Assembly (NCBI RefSeq): GCF_013839445.1 | Contig: NZ_JACDIT010000003.1 | Coordinates: 62,001 to 126,000, forward strand | Direction: 5' to 3' | Length of the DNA: 64,000 nt | DNA from: Chthonobacter albigriseus | GTDB taxonomy: Bacteria; Pseudomonadota; Alphaproteobacteria; Rhizobiales; Pleomorphomonadaceae | Shown: piece by piece, positions 26,128 through 53,765 of the stretch | How the letters are laid out: every line of letters begins with the position of its first letter | Numbering within the stretch: position 1 is the first letter of the stretch | The notes under the pieces: generated by a model | Seen by the model: only the letters and a program-made list of their open reading frames with translations | What the model was told of the DNA's origin: nothing | The model's database searches: none | Program-made: the position numbers and the translations under genes

Positions 26128-26143
26128 GGGCAATTTTTGCCGC
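26128..26143 (-). promoter_or_regulatory. ftr-like (FlbD-type) palindrome upstream of flgB
   Basis: Minus strand reads GCGGCAAAAATTGCCC, near-symmetric about AAA and alike the elements at 36904 and 41949. It lies between the CtrA-type box and flgB, about 70 bases before the gene, a place where a bound protein could repress. GG-to-GC spacing is 10, not the 12 of a sigma-54 promoter. Confidence 0.5.
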
Positions 26144-26166: not shown

Positions 26167-26357
26167 TCGCCTGCGCAGCGGCCGGGACAACCCCACCTAA
26201 GTGCCTGAAACTGCGGTGACGGAAAGGTTTCGGTGAGGTTTGTTCACCGACGCGACACGGGAGTCGGAAATCGTTGCCGCACCGTTTACAATCGCGAAAT
26301 CTGTAAGATTCGTCGAACGTGTTTTTGCGGCGAGACGCCTGGAACGAGAGATACAAT

Positions 26358-29082: not shown

Positions 29083-32000
29083 TCAACCGGCCTGCGCCGC
29101 CTGCCCGTCACCGGCGGGATCGGCGAGCGCGCTTGGAGCCGAATGCCCTGCCGCGCCGCCATGGCCGGCGTCAGGCGCCGGTGCGGTCCCGTGTTCGCCC
29201 TCCGGGGCCTGCGGGTCGCCATGCTGCGCGTCGGGACCATGAGCCGCATCGACGGGCCCGTCGGGCGCGGTACCGGGCACCTCCACGGGCACCTCTTCCT
29301 CGGGGCGCTTCTGCTCGACGAGATAGGCGGCGCCGGCACGCCCGGAGGTGAGGTAGCGCTTGCGGTACTCGGCGAGGAAGGCGGTGACGGAATCGGAGGC
29401 GACGATCTGCTGCGCCACCTGGTTGAATTCGGCTCCGGTGCCGTCGATCGGGCCGGTGACGACGTCGAAGGCGGACGCGCTCTTGGTGCCCGACATCTTG
29501 CCGCCGAACTTGTTGCGCAGCCGGTCCAGGCTGACCTCGTCCTGCGCCAACGCATAGGCGACACCGGCGCGCAGCACGTCGTGCTGCTCGCGCTCGTCAA
29601 GGGCGAGGTCTTCCGCCCAGCGTCCGCCGAGCAGCCGCTCGAACTGCTCGCCGCTCTCCTGGTGGCGGTCGGCGCCCCAGAGAACCTCGGCGCGTAGCCG
29701 GTCGACGTCCGAGCCGGCCAACGGTTTCAGGAGTTCCAGCGCGAGATCATACTTGCCCGTATCGGCCAGGGCCCGCACCTCGACCAGCCGCCGCTGGCGC
29801 TCGATGTCCACGGGAAGCTCGGCCTGGCGAGTCCGGCCGAGCGTCATCAGCGCCTGTTCCGGGCGCTTGTCGAGCAGGTAGACGAGCGCGAGATCCGCCG
29901 CGACCTTTGCCTTGGAGGCGCCACGGAGCCGGTTGTCGACCTGATAGGAGAGGAGTTGCGCCGCCTGCGGCAGAAGGTCGACGTCGACCAGCTTGCTGGC
30001 GAGATTGCGCACCATCTCGTCGCCCCGCTTCCCGGGCGGCGTCAACTCGCGAAAATCGTAGTAGAGGGCGAGGGCGTCCACCGGTTTCAAGTCGTCGGCC
30101 TTCCCGTCGAGAAACAGCGAGGCAAAGGCCGACTGCATCTCCTCCTGCATCAGGCGCGTGGTCTCGGCCTGGCTGTCGACCACGTTGGCGACCCGCATCA
30201 GCTCGAAGCCACGGCGGAAGTCGCCACGCTCCACGGAAAGCTGCCCCAGGGTGCGGAGCGTCCGGAGTTCCACATCGTCGCCGCGCCACGAGATGGCGAG
30301 CTGCTCCAGACGATCGGCAGCCTGGTCGGGGGTGATCAGCCCCTCGCGCCGCTGCAGGTTTACAAGACGATAGGTCGCCTCCGCTTCGACAGGGCCCCGC
30401 GCGTTCTGGACGGCCTTGGACAGCAACTCCATCGCGTCCGTGGAATGGCCGGTGGCGTCGGCAGCGCGAGCGTTGAGAATGTCGATGGAGGCAAGTTCGT
30501 TGGGCGAAAGGGTCTTCGGTTCCAACTGCGCCATCAAGCTGCGCGCCTTGCCATAGTCGTTGAGTTCGATCGACGCCTTGATGCCGGCGATCAGGAACTT
30601 GTTCTGGATGGCGACCGGATAGCGCCCGACCGCCACCTCGGCGCGCGGAAAGCTGCGCCGGGCCGCGGGATAGTCGCCGAGTTCGGTCAACGCGATCGAC
30701 TTCCAGATCGCCGCCTCCGGATGATCGGCGAACTCCGGCCCTTCCAGGTAGGTGAGCACGTCCTTGTAGCGGCTGGAAAGAACCGCCGCCGCCGCCCGCA
30801 TAATGCCCATGCGGCTGGAGGTAGCCTCCTCCGGCGCCAATGCGGAGATGTAGTCGAGCACTCCGCCCGCCTCATAGCCGAGGCTGTTCGCCAGGTTGAA
30901 CTCGGCGAACTCGTACCAGACCTTGACCTTCTCATCTTTCGTCTGCGCCTGTGCGGCCGCGGCATGCAGTTCGTGCCGGCGCTCCCAGAACTTGCGGGGG
31001 TCCGAAGTGTCCACTGCGCCGAGGTCCATGAAGGCCTGCCGCTCGGTCGACAGGACGCCCATCGCCGATGGCAGATCGAGCAGCGACGCCCGTTCGACCG
31101 GCACGGCAGTGGACACCGCCATGCCGTCCGGGCGGTCGATCACCACCGTGGTCTCGCGGGCGAGGACCGAAACGTCGTCGACCTTCGGCACGATGGCGAG
31201 GCCGTGGCCGGAGGAAAGCGCGTCGACATCGACGAAGCTTTGCGGCTTGGTCAGGCCGCGCGGCGGGCCGAGTGCCGTGACGACCACGATCTCGTCGCCC
31301 ACGGTCGGGTCCATCACCCGGTGGATGCCGTTCACCGGACCGAACGGCACCTCCAGCGAAACCGCGCCGTTGTCGCGGATCTGCCGCTTGATCTGCAGCG
31401 GCCGGATGGGCTGGGTGACCATATCGCCGATGGTGACGACCCAGAAGGTGCCGTCTGGGTTGAGCGTGGCGAGCAGCGGCTCGACAAGCGTGATGCGCAG
31501 GCCCCGCGCCTCGCCAACGGTGATCGGCTCGATCACCGATGCAATGCCGGCCAGCGCGTTCTGAAGGCTCTCCACCCCGAGCGGCGCGGGATCGTCGAAC
31601 AACAGCCACAACGTGCCACCGCGCGTGAACATCGCCGAGCCGATCTCGGCCTTGTACGGGAAGACCAGCCGGGTCGCCCGGCCGATCCGCTTGGCTTCCA
31701 CCCGCAACACGGCATCGGTCAGGTCGACGGAGCGCCCCTCCGGCACCTCCGCCATCTCGCCCGGATTGCCGTGGGCCAGAGGCGCGGCGGGCTTCGGCGC
31801 CTCCGCATCCGCCGCGGGCTGCGCGGGGTCGGAATGCGGGTCGGCAGCGGCATGCTCGACGGGTTCGGCATGCGGGTCGGCGGCGGCATGCTCGGCAGGC
31901 GCGGCATGCTCGCCCGTTGCGGCATGCGGGTCCGGCGAGGCGGCCTCGCCGTGCGGATCGGCAGCGGCGTGCTCCGTGGGCGCGGCATGTGGTTCGGCCG

Positions 32001-33045
32001 AGGCATGGTCTTGGCTTGCGGGAGGCACGGTCGGCGGCGCCACCGGTTCGGCGACCGAACCCGCCTGCTCCGATCCGGAGGCGTCGGGTATGCTGCCCTT
32101 GTAGCGGATCAGGTCCTTGCTGTTCGCATCCGTGCCACCGGCATCGCCGCGGGCCGCTCCGAGGAGCCGCCGGACGGCATCGTCGTTTTTGGTGCCCACC
32201 TTGCCTTCGATGTCGACGACATAGGTGTCCGCCTCGCGGAAGGCCCGCACGTCGGCGTCCGGCGCCACGAGGATGCGGAAACCGAGGCCGTCGGGTACCT
32301 CCGTATCGATCTCGATGTCATCCACGAAGGGCGGCAGGTCGGCCCGGATGGGCGACAGGTCGACCGGGGCGTTGCGGTTGAAGGCCACAGCCAGGACGCC
32401 GTCCGTCCGCTTCAGCGTGGCTTCGAACGGCACGTTCCAGGCGAACACGAAGCGCGAGAAGGTCGGCGTGCGGCCGACCCGGAGGTCGAGCCGGACCTTG
32501 GTGTCGCCGACCTGGCGCAGCAACGCCGCCTCCTTGGCCTGCAGGGCCGCCTCCTCCGCCCGGCGGGCGAGTTCGGCCACCACGTCGTCCGGCAGCCGCG
32601 GCGGCGGTCCGGACCAGCCGGACGGCAGGAAGTCGAGGAAAAGCTTGGCGCCGGCTTCCATGGTGTTGACGCGAACGCCGCGGGCCAATGCGAAGCGGGC
32701 ACCGCGATCGTCCGGATCTGCGCGAGCGATGGTGATGTAGCGGGCGAGCGTGATCGGGATCCGGGAGATGTCGAGCGGCGCTTCGGCCGCGAACTCGATG
32801 ACCAGCACCCCGTTGCTGGATCGGATGGTGTGCTTCGGCAGGATGTTGAGATCCGGAAAGTCCAGGATCACGCGGCCGTAGGTTTCCCAGTCCTCCACCG
32901 TCACGGTGGCCTTTTCGGCCGCCGGGGCATGCTGCGACAGCATCAGCACGACGAAAACGCCGGCAAGACACCGCCCGGCCAGGGACATCGGCCGGCGGAG
33001 GAACGCAGCGAAACGTTCCATCCAGGAGGAGACGATTTGAACCAT
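29083..33045 (-). CDS. Large exported TPR-type protein of the flagellar cluster
   Basis: 1320 residues from ATG 33045 (an upstream start at 33072 and internal starts at 33021 and 32988 are possible). A signal peptide or N-terminal membrane segment is present (LAGRCLAGVFVVLMLSQHAPA). The N-terminal ~300 residues are beta-rich with repeated VILDF/VDIEGKVG-like strands reminiscent of AMIN-type domains. A histidine-alanine-rich spacer is encoded at about 31.80-32.03 kb. The C-terminal ~600 residues are helical repeats that look like TPRs (KAQ-, LGDYPAARRSF-, YGKARSLM-like pairs), ending in another His/Gly-rich tail. Proteins of this layout sit beside motE in other alphaproteobacteria; the function is not established, and a motor or stator accessory role is inferred from position. 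Confidence 0.7.
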   Translation of the reverse strand: MVQIVSSWMERFAAFLRRPMSLAGRCLAGVFVVLMLSQHAPAAEKATVTVEDWETYGRVILDFPDLNILPKHTIRSSNGVLVIEFAAEAPLDISRIPITLARYITIARADPDDRGARFALARGVRVNTMEAGAKLFLDFLPSGWSGPPPRLPDDVVAELARRAEEAALQAKEAALLRQVGDTKVRLDLRVGRTPTFSRFVFAWNVPFEATLKRTDGVLAVAFNRNAPVDLSPIRADLPPFVDDIEIDTEVPDGLGFRILVAPDADVRAFREADTYVVDIEGKVGTKNDDAVRRLLGAARGDAGGTDANSKDLIRYKGSIPDASGSEQAGSVAEPVAPPTVPPASQDHASAEPHAAPTEHAAADPHGEAASPDPHAATGEHAAPAEHAAADPHAEPVEHAAADPHSDPAQPAADAEAPKPAAPLAHGNPGEMAEVPEGRSVDLTDAVLRVEAKRIGRATRLVFPYKAEIGSAMFTRGGTLWLLFDDPAPLGVESLQNALAGIASVIEPITVGEARGLRITLVEPLLATLNPDGTFWVVTIGDMVTQPIRPLQIKRQIRDNGAVSLEVPFGPVNGIHRVMDPTVGDEIVVVTALGPPRGLTKPQSFVDVDALSSGHGLAIVPKVDDVSVLARETTVVIDRPDGMAVSTAVPVERASLLDLPSAMGVLSTERQAFMDLGAVDTSDPRKFWERRHELHAAAAQAQTKDEKVKVWYEFAEFNLANSLGYEAGGVLDYISALAPEEATSSRMGIMRAAAAVLSSRYKDVLTYLEGPEFADHPEAAIWKSIALTELGDYPAARRSFPRAEVAVGRYPVAIQNKFLIAGIKASIELNDYGKARSLMAQLEPKTLSPNELASIDILNARAADATGHSTDAMELLSKAVQNARGPVEAEATYRLVNLQRREGLITPDQAADRLEQLAISWRGDDVELRTLRTLGQLSVERGDFRRGFELMRVANVVDSQAETTRLMQEEMQSAFASLFLDGKADDLKPVDALALYYDFRELTPPGKRGDEMVRNLASKLVDVDLLPQAAQLLSYQVDNRLRGASKAKVAADLALVYLLDKRPEQALMTLGRTRQAELPVDIERQRRLVEVRALADTGKYDLALELLKPLAGSDVDRLRAEVLWGADRHQESGEQFERLLGGRWAEDLALDEREQHDVLRAGVAYALAQDEVSLDRLRNKFGGKMSGTKSASAFDVVTGPIDGTGAEFNQVAQQIVASDSVTAFLAEYRKRYLTSGRAGAAYLVEQKRPEEEVPVEVPGTAPDGPVDAAHGPDAQHGDPQAPEGEHGTAPAPDAGHGGAAGHSAPSALADPAGDGQAAQAG

Positions 33046-33159
33046 ACGCAACCCGCCTGCGGACCGACACACGGCCGCACTTGGCAGGAAGCCTATGCGA
33101 GGGCCCTTAACAGGCTGTTGCGCCGAGGGCGGAAAGCGCTGGAATCCCGAGCTTTTGCA

Positions 33160-34299
33160 TTACTGGGCCGGCATGATCTTCGGCAGTGCGTCAAGCCCTT
33201 GCGCATCGCTCGGAACCGCAGCCTGCGAACTGGCGACGGGCACATCCGGCGTGACGGGAGGGGCCTGGACCTGCACTGTCATCCCGTAGGCGGCGAGCGC
33301 GGTGGTAAGGCTGCCGGCACGCTCCGGATCCATCACCGCCAGGATCGCCGACATCTTGCGCGGGTTCATGGCGCGGCTGAGCTCGATCAGGATGGGCAGC
33401 TCCAGCTTGTTGAACACCGCTGCGGCAGCCTTCGGCTTCATGTTCTCGTACATGGTGGCAAGGCCGCGGACCTGTTCCGACGGTCCTGGCGGGGCCGCGT
33501 TGGCCTGGGCATCGACGGCGGCCTTCAAGCCCTTCATCTCCTCCATCCGCTGCTGCAGGCGCCCCTCTGCCGCCTCCAGGAGCTTGAGGCGGGTGGTGAG
33601 ATCGTCCTCCCGCTGGTCCAGCGTCTGCCGGCGTTCGGAAAGCGACCGTTCGATCGCCAGCTCCGCCTGAGACTTCATCGGCTGGAATTCCTCAGGGCGG
33701 GTGGTGGACACGTTGGCGGGCAGGGTCGATTCGCCACCGCCATGCCCGTCAGCGGCCGGGGCTTCGCCGTGAGCGGCGGCGGCCGGGGCTTCAGCGTTGG
33801 CGGCGGCGGGAGCTTCGGCGTGTCCGTCGGCGGCGGGAGCCTCGGCATGCGCGTCGGCGGCAGGCGCTTCGGCGTGTCCGTCGGCGGCAGGCGCTTCGGC
33901 GTGTGCGTCGGCGGCCGGAGCTTCGCCATGGGCGTCCGCGGCAGGAGCGTCGCCATGGGCGTCTGCGGCAGGAGCTTCGCCGTGGGCGTCGGCGGCGGGG
34001 GCTTCGCCGTGGGCGTCGGCCGCGGGCGCGTCATGTCCGCCACTGGCAGCCTTCTGCTTGGCGAGCTCCTCGGCCTCACGGGCCAGATCGATTGGCGGGC
34101 CGAGGATCAGCGGGTCGTCGAAATTATCGCCCTGCGTCTTGGCGGGAGCTTCCTCGCCGTGCTCCCCGCCGCCGGCCGCGACGGCGGTGGCCGGGCCGAC
34201 CGCGAAGGAGCCGGACCCGGTCGCCATGCCAAGAACCTTGAGGACGAGAAGCGCCGAGACTGCGAACAGCACGATCGGCAGCAAGCGGATATCCTTCAC
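33160..34299 (-). CDS. motE: MotE-like flagellar motor protein with histidine-containing tandem repeats
   Basis: 379 residues, GTG start at 34299 overlapping the preceding stop by 4 bases (GTGA). One N-terminal membrane anchor (about 6-26), then a tandem repeat at 89-187 with unit H-G/A-E-A-P-A-A-D-A/G (9 residues, about ten copies), a coiled coil (SLSERRQTLDQREDDLTTRLKLLEAAEGRLQQR) and a C-terminal MgtE_N-like domain (YENMKPKAAAAVFNKLELPILIELSRAMNPRKMSAILAVMDPERAGSLT). In Sinorhizobium MotE is a periplasmic chaperone for MotC; homology here is at the domain level. It lies in the fliL-fliM-DUF6468-motE-TPR operon. Confidence 0.8.
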   Translation of the reverse strand: MKDIRLLPIVLFAVSALLVLKVLGMATGSGSFAVGPATAVAAGGGEHGEEAPAKTQGDNFDDPLILGPPIDLAREAEELAKQKAASGGHDAPAADAHGEAPAADAHGEAPAADAHGDAPAADAHGEAPAADAHAEAPAADGHAEAPAADAHAEAPAADGHAEAPAAANAEAPAAAAHGEAPAADGHGGGESTLPANVSTTRPEEFQPMKSQAELAIERSLSERRQTLDQREDDLTTRLKLLEAAEGRLQQRMEEMKGLKAAVDAQANAAPPGPSEQVRGLATMYENMKPKAAAAVFNKLELPILIELSRAMNPRKMSAILAVMDPERAGSLTTALAAYGMTVQVQAPPVTPDVPVASSQAAVPSDAQGLDALPKIMPAQ

Positions 34300-35048
34300 G
34301 CGGCCTCCTCGCGCTGCGCCCTGCGATAGGCGGAGAGTCGCTCCGCGGCGGCCTCCGCTGCGGCCTGCAGGGACCGGGACACCGGCTCGCGCTGTTGAAC
34401 CTGGGGCTGGGCCTGCGGCGGCGCGTAGGTCTGCGGGGCCGGCGCGTAGGCGGCGGGCGCCGGGGGCTCGTCGTAGCCGTAGTAGGCCGGCTGCGGTTCC
34501 GGCGCCGGCTGCGCCATGGCGAAGCCGTAACCGGGCGTCGGCGGCGCGGCGGGCCGCGGGGCCGGCTGACGGTATTGAGGCTCGGGCTGACGCTGCGGCT
34601 CCGGCTGACGGTATTGCGGTTCGGGCAGACGCTGCGGCTCCGGCTGACGGTATTGCGGTTCGCTCTGGCGCTGCGGCTCCGGCACGCGCATCGGCGCGGC
34701 CTCGCGGTGGGGCTCACCGCCGCGCCCGGAGGCGGCAGCGACCAGCCGGCGCAGCACGTCGTCGCCGAGCGCGATCTTGCGGTCGAGCTCCGAGATCGCC
34801 GCATCCGCCGAGGTCAGCCGGCCGCCGAGCGACTTCTCGCAGTCGGACGCGGTGGCCTTGAGGCCGAGGATCGCCCGCTCCGCGATCTCGGTGGCAGTGA
34901 TCAGCTCGGCGATGGTGGCGCGCAGCACCTCCTCGTCCGCGCGAAGCCGGGTGAGCCGCTGGTTGAGGATCATGCAATAGGCGATCGTCAGCACCAGCAG
35001 CGCCGCCACGATGATCTCGATGACCATTCCGAGGTTCAGGCCGGTCAT
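34296..35048 (-). CDS. DUF6468-type membrane-anchored flagellar-operon protein
   Basis: 250 residues. One N-terminal membrane helix (about 8-26, MVIEIIVAALLVLTIAYCMIL), then a helical/coiled-coil segment to about 110 (LTRLRADEEVLRATIAELI, ILGLKATASDCEKSLGGRL), and a low-complexity Pro/Gln region with a 13-residue unit E-P-Q-R-x-x-E-P-Q-Y-R-Q-P in three copies, followed by Pro/Ala/Tyr-rich sequence. Such proteins occur beside fliM in alphaproteobacteria; no function is known to me. ATG overlaps the fliM stop by 4 bases, and its own stop overlaps the motE start. Confidence 0.7.
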   Translation of the reverse strand: MTGLNLGMVIEIIVAALLVLTIAYCMILNQRLTRLRADEEVLRATIAELITATEIAERAILGLKATASDCEKSLGGRLTSADAAISELDRKIALGDDVLRRLVAAASGRGGEPHREAAPMRVPEPQRQSEPQYRQPEPQRLPEPQYRQPEPQRQPEPQYRQPAPRPAAPPTPGYGFAMAQPAPEPQPAYYGYDEPPAPAAYAPAPQTYAPPQAQPQVQQREPVSRSLQAAAEAAAERLSAYRRAQREEAA

Positions 35049-36256
35049 GTCTTTTCCATTTCCTTCTGGACGGCCCGTTCGAACGCCGCGAGCGTCATGC
35101 GCGGGCGGCGGAGCGGCTTGGACACCTTGACGGAGACGTTCTCGCCCAGCCGGCCGATGTGGCCGGAGGTGAGCTGGATGTCGCCGCACTTCACCGCGAT
35201 CGGGTCGCCCGGTCCGGTGTTGAACAGCAGCGTCTGCCCGACCGCCAGATCCAGCACCATCGACAGCGGCAAGTGCTCCTCGCACATCACCGCGTCGACG
35301 GCGACGTTGGCGTGGAAGATCTCGGTGGCGAGATGCCCTTCCCAGATGTGGTCGCGGCCGAACTTCTCGCCCATGAACATCTGCAAGAGCAGGTTCCGGA
35401 TCGGTTCGATCGTGGCATAGGGGAGCAGCATCTCCACCTTGCCGCCGCGGTCCTCCATGTCGACGCGGAACTGGATCAGGATCGCTGCATTCTTCGGCCG
35501 CGAGATCGCCGCGAAGCGCGGGTTGGTCTCCAGACGCTCCAGCGAGAACTTGATCTGGGTGAGCGGCGCGAAGGCCTTCTCCGTATCGGCCAGGATGATC
35601 TCGATCATCCGCCGGACGAGGTTCATCTCGATGGTGGTGTAGGGCCGCCCCTCCACACGGATCGCGGTGGTACCGCGCCCGCCGCCGAGCAGCACGTCGA
35701 TGATGGAGTAGATCAGCGAGGAATCGACGGTCATCAGGCCGAAGTTGTCCCACTGCTCCGCCTTGAACACCGCCAGGATCGCCGGCAGCGGGATCGAGTT
35801 CAGATAGTCGTCGAAGCGCACCGAGGAGATGCTGTCGAGCGAGACTTCCACGTTGTCGGACGTGAAGTTGCGCAGGCTCGTCGTGGTCTCGCGCACCAGC
35901 CGGTCGAACACGATCTCCAGCATCGGCAGACGCTCGTAGGACACCATCGCCGAGTTGATCAGGGCGCGGATGCCGCTCTGGTCGTTGGCGATGTGGTCGT
36001 CGACGTTGAAGCCGAGGAGGTTGTCGATCTCTTCCTGGTTGAGCACGCGGTCGGCGCCGCGCGAGGACGACTCCATGTCCGTGTCGGTGTCGTCGAGCGT
36101 GGCGGCCCACTGGGCGGCCATCGCGTCGGCGTTCTCCACGCCCTGCTCTTCCAGCGCCGCGCCCCACTCCGCGGCGAGATCGTCCATGTCGTCGCCTTTT
36201 TGCTCGGCGAGCGCGGCGCCCCAGTCAGCGGAGAGATCTTCGTCCTCGTTCTCCAT
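35045..36256 (-). CDS. fliM: Flagellar motor switch protein FliM with triplicated N-terminal motif
   Basis: 403 residues from ATG 36256 (a TTG two codons upstream is less likely). The EIDNLL motif at 76-81, the CheY-P docking site that normally lies at the extreme N-terminus, is preceded here by 70 acidic residues. This extension has three WGAAL-like units with tryptophans at 12, 31 and 50, exactly 19 residues apart. The middle domain (INSAMVSYERLPMLEIVFDRL, DVLLGGGRG, EMNLVRRMIEIIL) and C-terminal SpoA-like domain (VLDLAVGQTLLFNTGPGDPIAVKCGDIQLTSGHIGRLGENVSVKV) are complete. C-ring switch protein; second gene of the fliL operon. Confidence 0.95.
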   Translation of the reverse strand: MENEDEDLSADWGAALAEQKGDDMDDLAAEWGAALEEQGVENADAMAAQWAATLDDTDTDMESSSRGADRVLNQEEIDNLLGFNVDDHIANDQSGIRALINSAMVSYERLPMLEIVFDRLVRETTTSLRNFTSDNVEVSLDSISSVRFDDYLNSIPLPAILAVFKAEQWDNFGLMTVDSSLIYSIIDVLLGGGRGTTAIRVEGRPYTTIEMNLVRRMIEIILADTEKAFAPLTQIKFSLERLETNPRFAAISRPKNAAILIQFRVDMEDRGGKVEMLLPYATIEPIRNLLLQMFMGEKFGRDHIWEGHLATEIFHANVAVDAVMCEEHLPLSMVLDLAVGQTLLFNTGPGDPIAVKCGDIQLTSGHIGRLGENVSVKVSKPLRRPRMTLAAFERAVQKEMEKT

Positions 36257-36269
36257 CGACAAACCCCGG

Positions 36270-36788
36270 TTACTGGACGATGACGTTCTTGAAGAGCACG
36301 TCGTCGACGCGCGCCGGATAGACGGCCACGTTGATGCGGCGCTGCAGCTCCTCCTTGAGACGGTAGAGACCCGCCGACCCCTGCAGGTCGCTGGTCCTGA
36401 GCTCGCGGAGATAGGTCTGGAAGGCGTCCAGCACGCGCGGCATGTTGGGCTCGATGACCTGCAGCATCTCCTGGTTGGACACCTCCAGCGTCACCGCCAG
36501 CTTCACGTAGGCGGCAGTGTTGTCCACCGACGACAGGTTCACGATCATCACCGGCAGGTCCATGTAGTAGGCGCTCGGCTCAGGCGGCGCCGCGGGATGA
36601 TCGAGTGCCGCCTCCTCCGCCGTCTTCTCGCCGCCGGCGAACAGGAAGAAGTAGGCCCCGCCGCCGACCCCGAGCAGCAGCACCACCCCGACGCCGATCA
36701 GGATCAGCTTGTTGCCGAGCAGCTTTCCGATCAGGCCTTTCGGCTTCTCCTCGCCTTCGGCCCCGCCCTCTTCGCCCTTGTCAGCCAT
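36270..36788 (-). CDS. fliL: Flagellar basal body-associated protein FliL
   Basis: 172 residues from MADKGEEGG. One membrane helix (about 29-50, LILIGVGVVLLLGVGGGAYFFLF) and a periplasmic domain with YYMDLPVMIVNLSSVD and the C-terminal LKEELQRRINVAVYPARVDDVLFKNVIVQ. FliL stabilises stator-rotor interaction. First gene of the fliL-fliM-DUF6468-motE-TPR operon; 13 bases before fliM. The divergent gap to flgF carries CtrA-type, ftr-like and sigma-54 sites. Confidence 0.93.
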   Translation of the reverse strand: MADKGEEGGAEGEEKPKGLIGKLLGNKLILIGVGVVLLLGVGGGAYFFLFAGGEKTAEEAALDHPAAPPEPSAYYMDLPVMIVNLSSVDNTAAYVKLAVTLEVSNQEMLQVIEPNMPRVLDAFQTYLRELRTSDLQGSAGLYRLKEELQRRINVAVYPARVDDVLFKNVIVQ

Positions 36789-36873
36789 CGCCCCTGAACC
36801 ATCATTGGGATGCCGGCCCCGCGACTCTGCCGCGGCCTTCACCGGCTCTGTGCTGAAGGTGGGACCACAAAGG

Positions 36874-36899
36874 TTAACGAAACGTTGATGAAGCGTTAA
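36874..36899 (-). promoter_or_regulatory. Overlapping CtrA-type boxes upstream of fliL
   Basis: TTAA (36874-36877), 7 bases, TTGA (36885-36888), 7 bases, TTAA (36896-36899). This gives two overlapping TTAA-N7-TTAA-like sites sharing a central TTGA, one mismatch in each. It lies 86 bases upstream of the fliL start, which suits an early CtrA-dependent promoter. Confidence 0.5.
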
Positions 36900-36903
36900 C
36901 CGT

Positions 36904-36920
36904 GCGGCAAATCTTGCCGC
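36904..36920. promoter_or_regulatory. ftr-like (FlbD-type) palindrome between fliL and flgF
   Basis: Perfect 17-bp palindrome GCGGCAAATCTTGCCGC. It resembles the Caulobacter ftr elements bound by FlbD. It is 4 bases from the CtrA-type site on the fliL side, and its centre is 109 bases from the -12 GC of the flgF sigma-54 promoter. Confidence 0.55.
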
Positions 36921-37006
36921 TCCGACCTGCCGACCGGCAGCTTCAGCCCCTTGCGTCGAATGCCGTCTTTCCGGTTAACCGTCTGTTTTCCTTAAGGGTT
37001 CGTTGC

Positions 37007-37021
37007 TGGCACGCATCCTGC
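37007..37021 (+). promoter_or_regulatory. Sigma-54 promoter of flgF-flgG-flgA-flgH
   Basis: TGGCAC-GCATC-CTGC: invariant GG and GC at the required 12-base spacing, with one mismatch from TGGCAC-N5-TTGC. The predicted start site is near 37033, about 55 bases upstream of the flgF ATG. Confidence 0.75.
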
Positions 37022-37087
37022 GAGGATGCCGTCGGTAGCGCCGCTGGGGAGCGCAACGCTGCCAACGGACTTGGGGAATACGGCACG

Positions 37088-37831
37088 ATGGAGAACACAT
37101 CCCTCGTGGCGCTGTCTCGCCAGCTGGTGCTCAGGCGCAAGCTGGACGTGATCGCCAACAACGTGGCCAACCTGGACACTGTCGGCTACAAGCGCCTCTC
37201 GCTGGAACTCGACGAATACAAGATGCCGGTCGCGCGGGCGAACACGTTCCAGCGCCGCGACCAGGTGCATTCCTTCGTCGAGGACTGGAACACCACCGCC
37301 GACTTCGAGGAAGGCCCGACCGAAACGACGGGCAACCCGCTCGACGTCGTCATCCAGGGCGACGCCTTCTTCGTGGTGATGACCGAGGGCGGCCAGGAGC
37401 GCTACACCCGCGCCGGCAACTTCCAGATCGACGAGACCGGCCGCCTGGTGACGGCCGACGGGCACGCCGTGATGGGCGAAGGCGGCGAGATCGTCTTCGC
37501 GGCCAACGAAAAGGACGTGCTGATCAACAACGACGGCACGGTCGCCACCAACGTCGGCCCCCGCGGCTCCCTGCGCCTCGTCTCCTTCGCCGACGACGCG
37601 GTCCTTTCCCACCAGGGCGACAACACCTTCTCCGCCTCGGGCACCTCGCTGCCGGCGACCGATTTCATGCTCAAACAGGGCTCGATCGAGAAGTCCAACG
37701 TGGAAGGGATCATCGAGCTGACGCGCTTGATGGAAGTGACGCGCGCCTACGAGTCCGTCTCCAAGATGATCAGCGAACACGACGACCTGCGCAGCAAGGC
37801 CATCGAACGCCTCGGCGACACAACCGCCTGA
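37088..37831 (+). CDS. flgF: Flagellar basal-body rod protein FlgF
   Basis: 247 residues from ATG 37088. N-terminal LRRKLDVIANNVANLDTVGYKR, central GNPLDVVIQGDAFFVVMTEGG and C-terminal NVEGIIELTRLMEVTRAYESVSKMI are the standard FlgF/FlgG/FlgE family blocks. Proximal rod subunit, first gene of flgF-flgG-flgA-flgH with a sigma-54 promoter. The open frame extends upstream through the promoter region, so a more distal start is rejected. Confidence 0.95.
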   Translation: MENTSLVALSRQLVLRRKLDVIANNVANLDTVGYKRLSLELDEYKMPVARANTFQRRDQVHSFVEDWNTTADFEEGPTETTGNPLDVVIQGDAFFVVMTEGGQERYTRAGNFQIDETGRLVTADGHAVMGEGGEIVFAANEKDVLINNDGTVATNVGPRGSLRLVSFADDAVLSHQGDNTFSASGTSLPATDFMLKQGSIEKSNVEGIIELTRLMEVTRAYESVSKMISEHDDLRSKAIERLGDTTA

Positions 37832-41930: not shown

Positions 41931-41945
41931 TTAACACCGCGTTAA
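41931..41945 (-). promoter_or_regulatory. CtrA-type box between fliX and flgI
   Basis: Perfect TTAA-N7-TTAA (41931-41934 and 41942-41945), 53 bases upstream of the fliX start and 3 bases from an ftr-like palindrome. Suits an early, CtrA-dependent fliX promoter. Confidence 0.62.
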
Positions 41946-41948
41946 CGA

Positions 41949-41967
41949 CCCGGCACTTCTTGCCGCC
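41949..41967. promoter_or_regulatory. ftr-like (FlbD-type) element between fliX and flgI
   Basis: CCCGGCACTTCTTGCCGCC, near-palindromic and very close to the elements at 36904-36920 and 53736-53754. Its centre lies 118 bases from the -12 GC of the flgI sigma-54 promoter, an enhancer-like distance. Confidence 0.55.
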
Positions 41968-42061
41968 GACGGCCGTGCGACGTTTTCCACGCGCCACGCT
42001 CGGCAACGGATTGTTGTTGTCTGGCAAGAGGTTGTTCAGCTTTCCGGACTCGCCTTGGGAA

Positions 42062-42076
42062 TGGCACGCCGCTTGC
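42062..42076 (+). promoter_or_regulatory. Sigma-54 promoter of flgI
   Basis: TGGCAC-GCCGC-TTGC, an exact match to TGGCAC-N5-TTGC. The predicted start site is near 42088, so translation must begin downstream; this excludes the in-frame ATG at 42061. Confidence 0.82.
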
Positions 42077-42102: not shown

Positions 42103-43236
42103 ATGGATCGGACGACAATGCGCAATCGCTGGATCGGCCTCGTGGGGTTGGCCGTCCTCACCCTGGTGTCGCTGACGGGAGCCGGCAACGCGGCGTCCCG
42201 CATCAAGGACATCGTGGACGTTGAGGGCGTGCGCGAGAACCAGCTGATCGGCTACGGCCTGGTGGTGGGCCTGCAGGGCACGGGCGACAGCCTGAACAAC
42301 TCGCCCTTCACCAAGCAGAGCCTGCAGACCATGTTCGAGATGCTCGGCAAGCTGAATATCCGCGACGCCAACATCCGCACCGCCAACTCCGCCGCCGTGA
42401 TCGTCACCGCCAACCTGCCGCCTTTCGGCACCGCCGGCGCCCGCATCGACGTGACGGTGAGCGCCATCGGCGACGCCAAGAGCCTGCAGGGCGGCACGCT
42501 GCTGGTCACGCCGCTGATCGGCGCCACCGGCGAGGTGTTCGCCATCGCCCAGGGTCCGATCGCCATCGGCGGCTTCCAGGCCTCCGGCGACGCGGCCACC
42601 ATCACCCGCGGCGTGCCCACCCAGGGCCGCATCGCCAACGGCGCGGTGATCGAGAAGGAGATCCCCTACACGCTGGCGGCGCAGACCTCGCTGCGCCTGT
42701 CGCTGCGCAACCCGGACTTCACCACCGCCCGCCGCATCGCCCTCTCCATCAACGACCTGCTCGGCGACGGCGTCTCCGAGCCGCTGGACCCGGCCACCGT
42801 GCGCGTCACCGTGCCGGAGCGTTTCCGCGGCAACATCGTCGATCTCCTCACCGACATCGAGCAGCTGATCGTCGAGCCCGACCTGCCGGCCAAGGTGGTG
42901 GTCGACGAGGCGACCGGCATCATCGTGATGGGCCAGGAGGTGCGCGTGTCCACCGTGGCCGTCGCTCAGGGCAACCTGACCGTTCTCGTCACCGAGGACA
43001 TCCAGGTGTCGCAGCCCAACCCGCTCGCCGAGGGCGAGACGGTGGCGGTTCCGCGCACCACCCTGGAGGTCCAGGACGGCCGCGAGAAGAAGATGGCGGT
43101 GGTCCGCTCCGGCATCAGCCTGCAGGAGCTGGTCGACGGCCTCAACGCCCTCGGTCTCGGCCCGCGCGACCTGATCTCCATCCTGCAGGCCATCAAGGCC
43201 GCCGGCGCCCTCCAGGCCGAGATCGAGGTGCTCTGA
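42103..43236 (+). CDS. flgI: Flagellar P-ring protein FlgI
   Basis: 377 residues from ATG 42103 (GGGAG at 42089-42093; ATG 42118 is an alternative). Signal peptide about 1-31 ending GNAAS. FlgI blocks: RIKDIVDVEGVRENQLIGYGLVVGLQGTGDS, NIRTANSAAVIVTANLPPFGTAGARIDVTVSAIGDAKSLQGGTLL and the C-terminal LQELVDGLNALGLGPRDLISILQAIKAAGALQAEIEVL. Periplasmic P ring. First gene of flgI-flgJ-flgN/flbY; its TGA overlaps the next ATG by one base. Confidence 0.97.
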   Translation: MDRTTMRNRWIGLVGLAVLTLVSLTGAGNAASRIKDIVDVEGVRENQLIGYGLVVGLQGTGDSLNNSPFTKQSLQTMFEMLGKLNIRDANIRTANSAAVIVTANLPPFGTAGARIDVTVSAIGDAKSLQGGTLLVTPLIGATGEVFAIAQGPIAIGGFQASGDAATITRGVPTQGRIANGAVIEKEIPYTLAAQTSLRLSLRNPDFTTARRIALSINDLLGDGVSEPLDPATVRVTVPERFRGNIVDLLTDIEQLIVEPDLPAKVVVDEATGIIVMGQEVRVSTVAVAQGNLTVLVTEDIQVSQPNPLAEGETVAVPRTTLEVQDGREKKMAVVRSGISLQELVDGLNALGLGPRDLISILQAIKAAGALQAEIEVL

Positions 43237-44668: not shown

Positions 44669-44983
44669 CAGCCTGCGCCTCCCCCGGCGCGGGCCGCAGC
44701 CGTTCAGGATCTGCTAACCAAGATCCCCCGGCGTTCAGCTTGCATTCACCATGATCGCCCTGGATTTACGACTACTTCATAGAAGGCGAAGTAGTTTACC
44801 GTCCATTCACCATAAAATGTTGGCATTTTCTCTATTATTCCACCATTAACCACGGCCATTGGATCCTCCGTTTGTCACAAGTACTCACGGTTTTCTGCGA
44901 GCGATTTAAGAGTTTCTTGAAGGCTCAAGATGAAGATCGGGATGCCTCAAGAATGAGGCGCGTACTGAGAAGGATCTCGGAAA
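44669..44983 (+). promoter_or_regulatory. AT-rich flagellin promoter and leader region
   Basis: No gene. Contents: a weak sigma-54-like match at 44729-44743 (-12 TTGC good, -24 CGGCGT poor). CATTCACCAT occurs twice (44743-44752 and 44804-44813). There is an 8-bp inverted repeat ACTACTTC/GAAGTAGT (44771-44778 and 44788-44795). Two small hairpins lie close to the start codon: TCTTGA/TCAAGA (44915-44930) and GCCTC/GAGGC (44944-44959). The last two would be in the flagellin mRNA leader. Confidence 0.45.
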
Positions 44984-46429
44984 ATGGCTGGTAACGTCAC
45001 TCTCTCGTCTGCGGTTCGTCAGAACCTCCTGTCGCTGCAGTCGACCGCTGCGAACATGTCGCTGACCCAGAACCGCCTTGCCACCGGCAAGAAGGTCAAT
45101 TCGGCGCTCGACAACCCGACGAACTTCTTCACCGCGTCTTCGCTGAGCTCCCGTTCCAAGGATCTCTCAAACCTGATGGACGCCATGTCCAACGGCGTGA
45201 AGACGCTCGAGGCGGCCGACAACGGCCTCACCTCCATCACCAAGAACCTGGAGTCCATGCAGTCCACGCTCCGTCAGGCGCGCCAGGACAAGTCGTTCCA
45301 GACGGAGTCGTTCGACTTCGATGCCACGTCCGACACCTGGCAGGTCGTCTCCTTCGCCACCGACGCGGCCAAGCTCGGCTCGTTCGGCGCGCAGCGTGAC
45401 GTCACCCTCCAGTCGGTCGAGTCCTCCGGCTTCGATGTCGCCAACGTCGAGAACTCGACGATGACGATCTCCATGACGGACGACAACGGCACTGCCCTTG
45501 ACGACGTCGAGGTCAACATCAAGGCCGGCGACAGCGCCAAGGAGATCGCCAACAAGATCAACACCGCGCTGCGCAACTCCGACAACGGCGCCCAGGGCGT
45601 CCGCGCCTCGGTCGTCGACGGCGAACTGCGCATCACCGCCTCCTCCGCCCGCACCCTTTCGGTCGCTTCGGAAGACAGCGCCGGCGTTGACAACCTCGCC
45701 TCCGCCTTCGGTATCTCGACCGCCACCGCGGCCGCCGACACCGCCGAGAGCGTCGACGAGCTCGTGGCTGCGATCAATGCCGACTCGCTGGCCAGCGCCA
45801 GCGCCCGCGCCTCCAACAACAACGGCAGCCTGCGCCTGGAGAACCTCTCCACCAGCGATCTGTCGGTTGAGATCACGGACGGCACCACCCAGCAGGAAGG
45901 CACCACGATCGGCGGCAACCAGGTCCGCAAGAAGATCGCCGACCAGTTCAACGAACTGCGCGACCAGCTCGACAAGCTGGCCGACGACAGCTCCTTCAAC
46001 GGTATCAATCTTCTGCGCGGCGACAAGCTGACGATCACCTTCAACGAGACGTCGACCTCGACCCTCGACATCCAGACCAAGAACGGTGACTCCATCACCG
46101 CTCAGAACCTGGGCCTGTCGGACGTCGATGCCAGCGAGCTCGACAAGGACGCCGACATCGACACGCTGCTGACCAACGTCTCCAGCGCCCTGAACTCGAT
46201 CCGCTCGCAGTCGTCCGCGTTCGGTTCGAACCTGTCGATCGTGCAGAACCGCACCGACTTCACCAAGTCGATGATGAACACCCTGCAGACCGGCGCCGAC
46301 TCGCTCGTCCTCGCCGACACCAACGAGGAAGCAGCGAACATGCTCTCGCTGCAGACCCGCCAGCAGCTGTCCTCGACGGCTCTGTCGCTCGCCTCGCAGG
46401 CCGACCAGGCGGCTCTCCGTCTGTTCTGA
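44984..46429 (+). CDS. Flagellin, major filament protein
   Basis: 481 residues, no cysteine. N-terminal D0/D1 region (VRQNLLSLQSTAANMSLTQNRLATGKKVNSALDNPTNFFTA) and C-terminal region (SNLSIVQNRTDFTKSMMNTLQTGADSLVLADTNEEAANMLSLQTRQQLSSTALSLASQADQAALRLF) are conserved flagellin ends; the middle (about 110-330) is the variable surface domain. It has a long, hairpin-rich leader and its own terminator, suggesting high and post-transcriptionally controlled expression. FlbT, encoded downstream, is the likely regulator. Confidence 0.95.
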   Translation: MAGNVTLSSAVRQNLLSLQSTAANMSLTQNRLATGKKVNSALDNPTNFFTASSLSSRSKDLSNLMDAMSNGVKTLEAADNGLTSITKNLESMQSTLRQARQDKSFQTESFDFDATSDTWQVVSFATDAAKLGSFGAQRDVTLQSVESSGFDVANVENSTMTISMTDDNGTALDDVEVNIKAGDSAKEIANKINTALRNSDNGAQGVRASVVDGELRITASSARTLSVASEDSAGVDNLASAFGISTATAAADTAESVDELVAAINADSLASASARASNNNGSLRLENLSTSDLSVEITDGTTQQEGTTIGGNQVRKKIADQFNELRDQLDKLADDSSFNGINLLRGDKLTITFNETSTSTLDIQTKNGDSITAQNLGLSDVDASELDKDADIDTLLTNVSSALNSIRSQSSAFGSNLSIVQNRTDFTKSMMNTLQTGADSLVLADTNEEAANMLSLQTRQQLSSTALSLASQADQAALRLF

Positions 46430-46555: not shown

Positions 46556-46570
46556 TTAACCCTTTGTTAA
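46556..46570 (+). promoter_or_regulatory. CtrA-type box upstream of flagellin 2
   Basis: Perfect TTAA-N7-TTAA (46556-46559 and 46567-46570), 51 bases before the second flagellin start. It is followed by a CCGGCA half-site at about 46571, without a TTGCCG partner. Confidence 0.6.
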
Positions 46571-46621: not shown

Positions 46622-47815
46622 ATGAGCGAAGTGAATCTCACCCGCGCCACGCGCGAGAACCTGACCGCGCTGCGCACTGCCATCGAGCAGGCCGGCAAGG
46701 CCGGCAATCGCATGGCGACCGGCGTCAAGGTTCAAACGGCGCTCGACCAGCCCTCCTCCTACTTCTCCTCGCAGGCACTCGGCGAGCAAGCGGCTGACCT
46801 CAACCGGATCCTCGAAAAGATCGGCCAGGGCATCCAGGTCGTGCGCGCCGCGGACCAGGGCCTCACCTCCATCGAGGATCTTCTGCAGGTCGCCCGCGCC
46901 AACGTCGAGCGCGCCCAGGCCAGTCTGAGCGCCTTCGAGCGGGCCGACATCGCACGCGATTTCAACGCCGTGCTGAAGCAGGTCTCCGAGACCGCCGCCG
47001 ATTCCGGATACCAGGGCCGCAATCTCCTCGGTGGCGACGGCAACGACCTGAAGCTCTACTTCTCCGACCAGCTGGTGAACGCCGTCACCATCAAGGCCGT
47101 CGACCTCGTCAACATCAAGGGCTCGCTCGACCTCGAGCCGGTTGAGGTCGGCCACTTCGGCACTCTCGAGGTGGACCTCGCCCTTGGCTCGGTCGCCTCC
47201 GCCGACACCCGGCTGATCGGCGACGCCTCCAACTTCACCGACGGCGACGTGATCACCGTCAAGAATGCGGCCGGCGAAACGGTGGCGTTGCTGGAGATCA
47301 CCGACCAGACCCGCGTCAGCGATCTTCTGAAGGCGTTCCGCCAGCCCAACCTCGGCCTTCGCGCGAGCTTCGAGGACAGCAAGCTGACCATCGAGACCGC
47401 GGACACAATGACCATCACCGGCGGCACGGCAGGCGGCGCCTTCGAGAACGCGACGATCGATGCCATCCCGAGCGAATGGCTGGGCCGCGTGGACATCGAC
47501 GATCCGCTGACGCCGGAGGACGACAACCGCCTGGACCTGCCCGACATGCTGACGCGCGTGCGCGCGGCGATCCTCACCACGCGGGACATGGCCTCCTCCT
47601 TCGGCACGAGCTTCGCGATGCTGCAGAGCCGCGAAAGCTTCATGAAAGGTTTCGCCGGTACGCTTCTGAGTGGCGCCGAACAGGCCGTCGCAGCGGACCG
47701 GGACGAGGAGGCAGCTAACCTCCTGGCTCTCAACGTGCGGCAGCAGTTCGCCTCCAATGCCCTGTCCTTCACGACGGAAGCAGACCAGGGCGTCCTCAGG
47801 ATGCTCGGCGGCTGA
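46622..47815 (+). CDS. Divergent second flagellin
   Basis: 397 residues. Flagellin-type ends (TRATRENLTALRTAIEQAGKAGNRMATGVKVQTALDQPSSYFSSQAL; MLQSRESFMKGFAGTLLSGAEQAVAADRDEEAANLLALNVRQQFASNALSFTTEADQGVLRMLGG) but quite different from flagellin 1, with another central domain. It could be a minor filament flagellin with a special location. It has a separate promoter region with a CtrA-type box, and is followed 37 bases later by flbT. Confidence 0.85.
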   Translation: MSEVNLTRATRENLTALRTAIEQAGKAGNRMATGVKVQTALDQPSSYFSSQALGEQAADLNRILEKIGQGIQVVRAADQGLTSIEDLLQVARANVERAQASLSAFERADIARDFNAVLKQVSETAADSGYQGRNLLGGDGNDLKLYFSDQLVNAVTIKAVDLVNIKGSLDLEPVEVGHFGTLEVDLALGSVASADTRLIGDASNFTDGDVITVKNAAGETVALLEITDQTRVSDLLKAFRQPNLGLRASFEDSKLTIETADTMTITGGTAGGAFENATIDAIPSEWLGRVDIDDPLTPEDDNRLDLPDMLTRVRAAILTTRDMASSFGTSFAMLQSRESFMKGFAGTLLSGAEQAVAADRDEEAANLLALNVRQQFASNALSFTTEADQGVLRMLGG

Positions 47816-53560: not shown

Positions 53561-53627
53561 GGCATTTTCTCCTGGAATAGAGCCGCTCGATGACCGGGTT
53601 CCCGGACGGGAACGTCGGTCTTCATCG

Positions 53628-53642
53628 GCAAGCCGCGTGCCA
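53628..53642 (-). promoter_or_regulatory. Sigma-54 promoter of flgE-flgK-flgL
   Basis: Minus strand reads TGGCAC-GCGGC-TTGC, an exact match to the -24/-12 consensus. The predicted start is near 53616, 56 bases before the flgE GTG. Confidence 0.82.
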
Positions 53643-53714: not shown

Positions 53715-53765
53715 CCCGGCAAGAACCGGTTTCCGCCCGGCAGCTTTTGCCTCCTGTCCCCGGCA
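53715..53765. promoter_or_regulatory. Phased CCCGGCA array (ftr-like) upstream of flgE
   Basis: CCCGGCA occurs at 53715, 53736 and 53759, spaced 21 and 23 bases (about two helical turns). The middle copy belongs to CCCGGCAGCTTTTGCCTCC (53736-53754), the same pattern as the flgI element. Its centre is 117 bases from the -12 GC of the flgE promoter. Confidence 0.5.

Follow-up and report, generated by a model that had tools for sequence, protein, structure and literature searches.

In Caulobacter, the fliLM promoter depends on CtrA, and Stephens and Shapiro reportedly described it in 1993 as a class II promoter. Wu, Benson and Newton (1995) reportedly showed in vitro activation of both flgF and flgI by FlbD, with the ftr some 100 bp from the start site. 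At fliF, the element known as ftr4 overlaps the core promoter. According to the part of PMC3930126 that is accessible, FlbD acts through ftr to activate the middle and late genes of Caulobacter and through ftr4 to repress fliF. The class II/III flagellar logic and the requirement for IHF are likewise covered in the available part of PMC3096577. Divergent flagellar promoters that share a regulator site are also described. In the fla2 system of Rhodobacter sphaeroides, fliL2p and fliF2p share one CtrA site and are both activated by CtrA, and in Caulobacter flgBp-fliOp, which the same source cites, a shared CtrA site has opposite effects, repression on one side and activation on the other (both from the available part of PMC6180460).

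We analyzed a window of 64,000 nucleotides from Chthonobacter albigriseus that contains a 299-bp intergenic gap (36789-37087) between the start of fliL (36788, minus strand) and the start of flgF (37088, plus strand). By FlgF, the closest named relative is Chthonobacter rhizosphaerae (66% identity), and Pleomorphomonas is next. A reading made from the sequence alone (the sequence-only reading) had placed an early fliL-fliM-motE operon on the left of this gap. Profile searches bear out fliL and fliM, and the name motE has sub-threshold matches only (Table 1). On the right, flgG, flgA, and flgH follow flgF, as identified by profile search. The MotE-like open reading frame (ORF) contains a low-complexity repeat of the EAPAADAHG type at about 33800-34060. 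Also within the flagellar cluster, a 1329-aa ORF (29083-33072, minus strand) has no Pfam match.

For the motif searches, we used what we take to be the consensus forms of the ftr, IHF, CtrA, and sigma-54 sites. The elements that the sequence-only reading had described in the gap are all there: two overlapping CtrA-like TTAA sites, a perfect palindrome 4 bases away from them, and a sigma-54 promoter on the flgF side, which was called near-perfect and is an exact match. The distance it gave from the center of the palindrome to the -12 GC, 109 bases, is also correct (36912 to 37021). The two CtrA-like boxes, TTAACGAAACGTTGA (36874-36888) and TTGATGAAGCGTTAA (36885-36899), overlap in a TTGA and are each one mismatch away from TTAA-N7-TTAA; the array amounts to three half-sites at 11-bp steps. 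The palindrome, GCGGCAAATCTTGCCGC, has perfect 7-bp arms around a 3-base center (ATC) and begins 4 bases past the last TTAA of the array. The genome (4.64 Mb) has a single copy of this 17-mer, and nowhere else in the window is CGGCAA-N3-TTGCCG, the pattern of its 15-base core, matched without mismatch. From the start of ftr to the start of the sigma-54 motif is 102 bp. The sequence-only reading had not listed the weak IHF-like site, the additional ftr half-sites, or the repeat of the layout at fliX/flgI described below.

Table 1. Predicted elements and genes at the early/late-type gaps of the window and upstream of flgE.
Feature	Position	Strand	Remarks
fliL	36270-36788	-	First gene of early operon; NCBIfam PRK12785, E=4.6e-51; Pfam FliL
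fliM	35045-36262	-	Next after fliL; above profile cut-off
MotE-like ORF	33160-34299	-	Sub-threshold MgtE_N match and sub-threshold FlbB collar match
flgF	37088-37831	+	First gene of flgF-flgG-flgA-flgH
CtrA-type array TTAA-N7-TTGA-N7-TTAA	36874-36899		Two overlapping boxes, one mismatch each
ftr-like inverted repeat GCGGCAAATCTTGCCGC (GCGGCAA-ATC-TTGCCGC)	36904-36920		Candidate FlbD enhancer site
Possible extra ftr half-sites CTGCCG, CGGCAG	36918-36942		Beyond the main palindrome; read from sequence
Weak IHF-like site TAACCGTCTGTTT	36976-36988		2 mismatches to YAANNNNTTGATW, which we take to be the consensus
sigma-54 promoter -24/-12 TGGCACGCATCCTGC for flgF	37007-37021	+	Predicted; exact motif match
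Perfect CtrA box TTAACACCGCGTTAA	41931-41945		fliX(-)/flgI(+) gap
ftr-like site CGGCACTTCTTGCCG	41951-41965		Separated from the fliX/flgI CtrA box by exactly 5 bp; 1 mismatch
sigma-54 promoter TGGCACGCCGCTTGC for flgI	42062-42076	+	Predicted; in-frame ATG at 42103
flgB	start 26066	-	Above profile cut-off
ftr-like site GGGCAATTTTTGCCG	26128-26142		flgB/fliO gap; ~61 bp before flgB
Perfect CtrA box TTAACGACTGGTTAA	26152-26166		flgB/fliO gap; 9 bp from ftr-like site
fliO candidate	start 26358	+	Putative; small membrane-type ORF upstream of fliP
sigma-54 promoter for flgE	53627-53642	-	Predicted; ftr-like sites upstream, 53717-53735 and 53738-53752

We compared this gap across 20 sequences: 19 from the family search (this genome included, with its Pleomorphomonas relatives) and L072, a Hyphomicrobiales MAG from outside that search that we retained as an outside row. 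The family count leaves out L035 and L060, which lie at a contig end; L073 and L074, which come from distant Rhodospirillales; and L051, in which the match starts at residue 69. The sequence-only reading had proposed such an alignment and had held poor conservation against its own view, and the alignment showed the opposite, with the ftr, the first TTAA, and the sigma-54 motif kept in all 19 family sequences. The ftr has 0-2 mismatches (12 are perfect, 6 have one, and 1 has two); the first TTAA lies 29-31 bp before it; and the sigma-54 motif, which was found at 0-1 mismatch in all 20 aligned sequences, follows the ftr at a spacing of 100-102 bp across the 19. Of the 19, 16 also have a TTAA that precedes ftr by exactly 5 bp. 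In L072, the sigma-54 motif is present and ftr is missing from its place.

The sequence-only reading spoke of a single ftr element. This genome does carry one full site, with half-sites only (5 and 4 mismatches) at the positions 12-14 and 29-32 bp further on, where several other family members carry second ftr-like sites with up to 3 mismatches (9 of 19 and 10 of 19 sequences, respectively). The second sites suggest that "single ftr" may be too simple. The aligned family sequences also keep a TGCCG about 13 bp past the main palindrome.

For the wider comparison, we sampled 289 genomes of the class, found FliL in 151, and read 110 loci, one per genome. In 17 of these, the stretch that we examined had no FlgF match; in all 93 of the others, fliL and flgF are divergent. 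A sigma-54 motif (up to 1 mismatch, within 200 bp) is present at 91 of the 93 loci (shuffle mean 3.2), an ftr-like site anywhere in 400 bp at 68 (shuffles 3.0), and both together at 68 (shuffles 0.2); at 64 loci, the sigma-54 site follows the ftr by 40-160 bp. The other 25 loci have no ftr-like site at up to 2 mismatches. Because this layout is common in the class, it is peculiar to no single genome.

Could these be chance matches without function in GC-rich DNA? Genome-wide, the sigma-54 pattern with one mismatch is at background, being rarer than its reversed control (95+103 versus 224+272 matches), so that only exact matches are meaningful at that scale. The TTAA boxes are loose as well, with a CtrA-type box at 45 of the 93 class loci against 14.6 in shuffles. 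However, conservation in the family and the class far exceeds the shuffles, and of the six exact matches to TGGCACG-N4-YTGC in the genome, three precede flgF, flgI, and flgE in the window. (The ORFs downstream of the other three, L002, L003, and L007, look non-flagellar on reading.) We consider chance to be a most improbable explanation.

The spacing between ftr and sigma-54 is informative about the flgF side. With one genome per family, the distance between the two motifs is helically phased at fliL/flgF (Z = 16.3 at 11 bp and 9.5 at 10.5 bp; 44 families) and again at the fliX/flgI gap discussed below (Z = 13.9 and 11.3, respectively; 38 families). This is as expected if an activator bound at an enhancer loops to touch the polymerase at short range, and the phasing is the best evidence in our analysis that the predicted ftr serves the sigma-54 promoter. 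Between the two motifs, IHF-like sites with up to one mismatch were found at 23 of 64 class fliL/flgF loci (2.5 in shuffles) and at 21 of 47 fliX/flgI loci (1.6 in shuffles). Motifs together with family and class conservation support what the sequence-only reading proposed for this side, a putative promoter of the sigma-54/FlbD type, and likewise a CtrA box for fliL on the other.

The genome also encodes the expected regulators. The FlbD orthologue has an AAA+ domain, a Fis-type HTH, and a receiver domain under the Pfam cut-off, and its gene adjoins a FliH-like gene and fliN. We base its name on this domain make-up, the fliH-fliN neighborhood, and the score gap, and not on an FlbD-specific model. 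FliX is encoded inside the window, and the genome also encodes RpoN and CtrA (L404 for CtrA; NF045991, 427.9 bits against a cut-off of 350). Among 80 of the 92 other genomes with the flgF locus (12 second members of families were left out), 75 have an FlbD orthologue (E of 1e-142 or better), and no orthologue was found in five (G044, G078, G079, G083, and G100). All five carry ftr-like sites: at flgF in G044, G078, G079, and G100 (perfect in G100), and at flgI, likewise perfect, in G083. Such sites may reflect another binding protein, a gene that the search missed, or, in some of the genomes, gaps in the assembly, although the completeness ratings of G079 and G100 are 100%. We had also considered the co-occurrence of FlbD and ftr as proof of binding, which is unusable because FlbD is near universal in this set.

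Overall, the fliL/flgF gap is very probably a divergent flagellar promoter of the Caulobacter type, class II (CtrA) in one direction and class III (FlbD and sigma-54) in the other. From the observed motifs, their order, spacing, and conservation, and the four regulator genes, occupancy and activity would run as follows. CtrA at 36874-36899 would drive fliL-fliM leftwards, with the TTAA proximal to fliL in the role of -35. After completion of the export apparatus, FlbD under the control of FliX would bind ftr at 36904 and the half-sites, and, aided by an IHF bend near 36976, it would contact the sigma-54 RNA polymerase at 37007-37021. This contact would switch on flgF-flgG-flgA-flgH rightwards. 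Several observations count against this picture: the weak IHF-like site, the lack of a CTA-like -10 on the fliL side of this genome (see below), the 25 class loci and L072 with no ftr in place, and the ftr-like sites of the five genomes in which FlbD was not found.

To place the fliL core promoter, we took the 64 loci that have both ftr and sigma-54 and looked for a TAG at 8-15 bp from a TTAA, towards fliL. There are 21 such cases at 10 or 11 bp (16 + 5), in 16 families, and none at the other gaps. We infer that this TAG is the -10 of fliL (CTA) and that the CtrA half-site TTAA is its -35. In a narrower search (TTAA on the fliL side of ftr, at up to 110 bp), such a -10 was found in 15 of 36 families, against 4.8 in shuffles. 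All 16 families have the TAG-paired TTAA between fliL and ftr; once the limit on the side was dropped, none of the 64 loci had such a pair on the other side. The ftr would therefore be upstream of the core promoter, and any repression of fliL by FlbD would have to act via CtrA: FlbD would hinder CtrA 5 bp away and spare the core promoter itself. In this genome, neither reading the sequence nor the TAG search turned up a CTA-like -10 on the fliL side; here, the ftr lies between the CtrA array and flgF and hence does not overlap a class II core promoter of the fliF/ftr4 kind. For fliX, a -10 by the CTA rule was not found (1 of 26 families, versus 3.5 in shuffles).

The fliX/flgI gap of the same window (41931-42076) repeats the order seen at fliL/flgF: CtrA box, 5-bp gap, ftr, and sigma-54 site. 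In the class, FliX was found in 203 genomes, and we read 90 loci, of which 77 have a FlgI match and 13 do not. Among the 77, a sigma-54 motif is present at 58 (shuffles 2.4) and is accompanied by ftr at 47 (shuffles 0.0). The 5-bp gap between CtrA box and ftr is found in this genome and in L284, L286, L287, L292, and L299, although the ftr of L286 has 3 mismatches; in L285, the same gap lies next to a CTAA variant. Of the 14 genomes of a single genus, 12 (L288-L291, L294-L298, L300, L302, and L303) have a decayed CtrA box, of which GGTTACCG is an example, and retain ftr and sigma-54. L292 and L299 keep the box. Matching contigs identify the genus as Pleomorphomonas, and L293 is without fliX in the family fliX/flgI set.

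Other gaps in the window have some of these elements. Between flgB and the fliO candidate, an ftr-like site and a perfect CtrA box lie 9 bp apart, and no sigma-54 site was seen before flgB; this is possibly a promoter repressed by FlbD. By sequence match, and irrespective of gene context, Pleomorphomonas genomes also have a 9-bp element of this kind. Further coordinates that we noted in this gap are 26265-26279. Upstream of flgE, which has a predicted sigma-54 promoter and ftr-like sites, there is no CtrA box with up to one mismatch. Two flagellin-like genes (44984-46429 and 46622-47815) have CtrA-type boxes just upstream (44906-44920 and 46556-46570), and neither a sigma-54 nor an ftr-like site was found upstream of them. 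The second of these boxes is perfect and is followed by TTAACC-N10-CTATCG.

What remains to be weighed is whether the CtrA box and the ftr work as one site. FlbD at ftr might displace or block CtrA, so that fliL is turned off as flgF is turned on, and likewise at fliX/flgI. The strict gap speaks for such a hand-over: it is kept in most of the family at fliL/flgF and recurs at fliX/flgI. Alternatively, the ftr may activate flgF only and the CtrA box fliL only, with their closeness reflecting a short gap in gene-dense DNA; that two unrelated gene pairs keep a strict 5-bp gap, and do so in several genera, is awkward for this explanation. Yet the gap is not universal: at fliL/flgF, 3 of the 19 family members are without the TTAA next to ftr, and at flgB/fliO the gap is 9 bp.

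Helical phasing between TTAA and ftr is a further point in favor of a hand-over. At fliL/flgF, the nearest fliL-side TTAA within 60 bp is phased to ftr (Z = 7.6; 27 families), in a comparison that was chosen post hoc. A prediction of phasing at fliX/flgI, written beforehand, held (Z = 3.7, Rayleigh p = 0.025; 23 families), with p = 0.003 in a directed test. But 11 of these 23 families are shared with the first set, and the 12 new families give Z = 1.1, which is not significant. Wider windows weaken the phasing at fliL/flgF (Z = 3.0 and 3.5 at 10.5 bp), and the TTAA with a recognizable fliL -10 gives Z = 1.1 within 60 bp (n = 11) and Z = 0.1 overall (n = 15). Because it is weak in the wider windows, in the new families (n = 12), and in the strictest subset (n = 11), the phasing between CtrA box and ftr is only suggestive. 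Part of it could come from a single conserved array whose half-sites decay unevenly. The distance from TTAA to sigma-54 has no clear phasing (Z up to 2.5).

Two further findings fit neighbors that act independently. Across the class, the distance from TTAA to ftr ranges from 6 to more than 100 bp, while that from ftr to sigma-54 is tightly phased. Furthermore, ftr and sigma-54 persist at fliX/flgI in the 12 genomes that have lost the CtrA box, which counts against a shared switch. The sequence-only reading had held that one ftr shuts fliL off and turns flgF on. Its flgF half is supported by motifs and conservation; the repression of fliL does not fare as well, with ftr upstream of the inferred -35. 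Given the mixed evidence from spacing and box loss, we lean towards independent neighbors as the somewhat probable explanation and regard the one-site hand-over as a possibility that we would not bet on. We are similarly doubtful that FlbD, when bound here, reduces the transcription of fliL as well. The broader proposal, a composite operator for both CtrA and FlbD with 5-bp or whole-turn spacing at fliL/flgF and fliX/flgI in much of the class, seems unlikely. If it were true, FlbD would touch or evict CtrA, and shut-off would be coupled to switch-on at one DNA site. The fixed gap between CtrA box and ftr, along with the natural loss of the box at fliX/flgI, provides a comparative test bed for how FlbD silences early genes.

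Searches of the open literature turned up no title or abstract on the class-wide fliL/flgF layout or the 5-bp gap, which is weak evidence of novelty as subscription journals were mostly outside this search. Activation of flgF by FlbD is already known in Caulobacter, so the flgF half of this locus is another instance of it. More broadly, the class II/III flagellar logic of Caulobacter, in its gene pairs, motifs, and spacing, is widely retained in the class.

Compared to the class III promoters of Caulobacter crescentus (flgF, flgI, and flbG), the locus is similar in having a sigma-54 element with ftr about 100 bp upstream, in encoding FlbD, FliX, and RpoN, and in having flgF and flgI as the same targets. 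It differs in its host, which belongs to a family of Pleomorphomonas relatives, and in that the IHF-like site is weak. On the other side of the gap, there is, as for Caulobacter fliLM, an early fliL-fliM operon with its own control region, a likeness by description; set beside that promoter, this one has three half-sites spaced in 11-bp steps and lacks a clear -10. The flagellin-like genes here have a CtrA-type box upstream, whereas the flagellins of Caulobacter are RpoN-dependent according to the accessible part of PMC3930126. The ftr beside a putative class II promoter is also reminiscent of fliF/ftr4, the class II promoter that FlbD represses in the same part of PMC3930126, but in our locus the ftr sits upstream of the CtrA box. 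As in fliL2p-fliF2p of Rhodobacter sphaeroides (in the available part of PMC6180460), one regulator site lies between divergent flagellar operons; unlike fla2, the locus would use CtrA in one direction and sigma-54 in the other. Finally, opposite control from a single site at Caulobacter flgBp-fliOp is a precedent for the switch idea, although the regulator there is CtrA and not FlbD, and the flgB/fliO pair in our window adds an ftr-like site to that arrangement.
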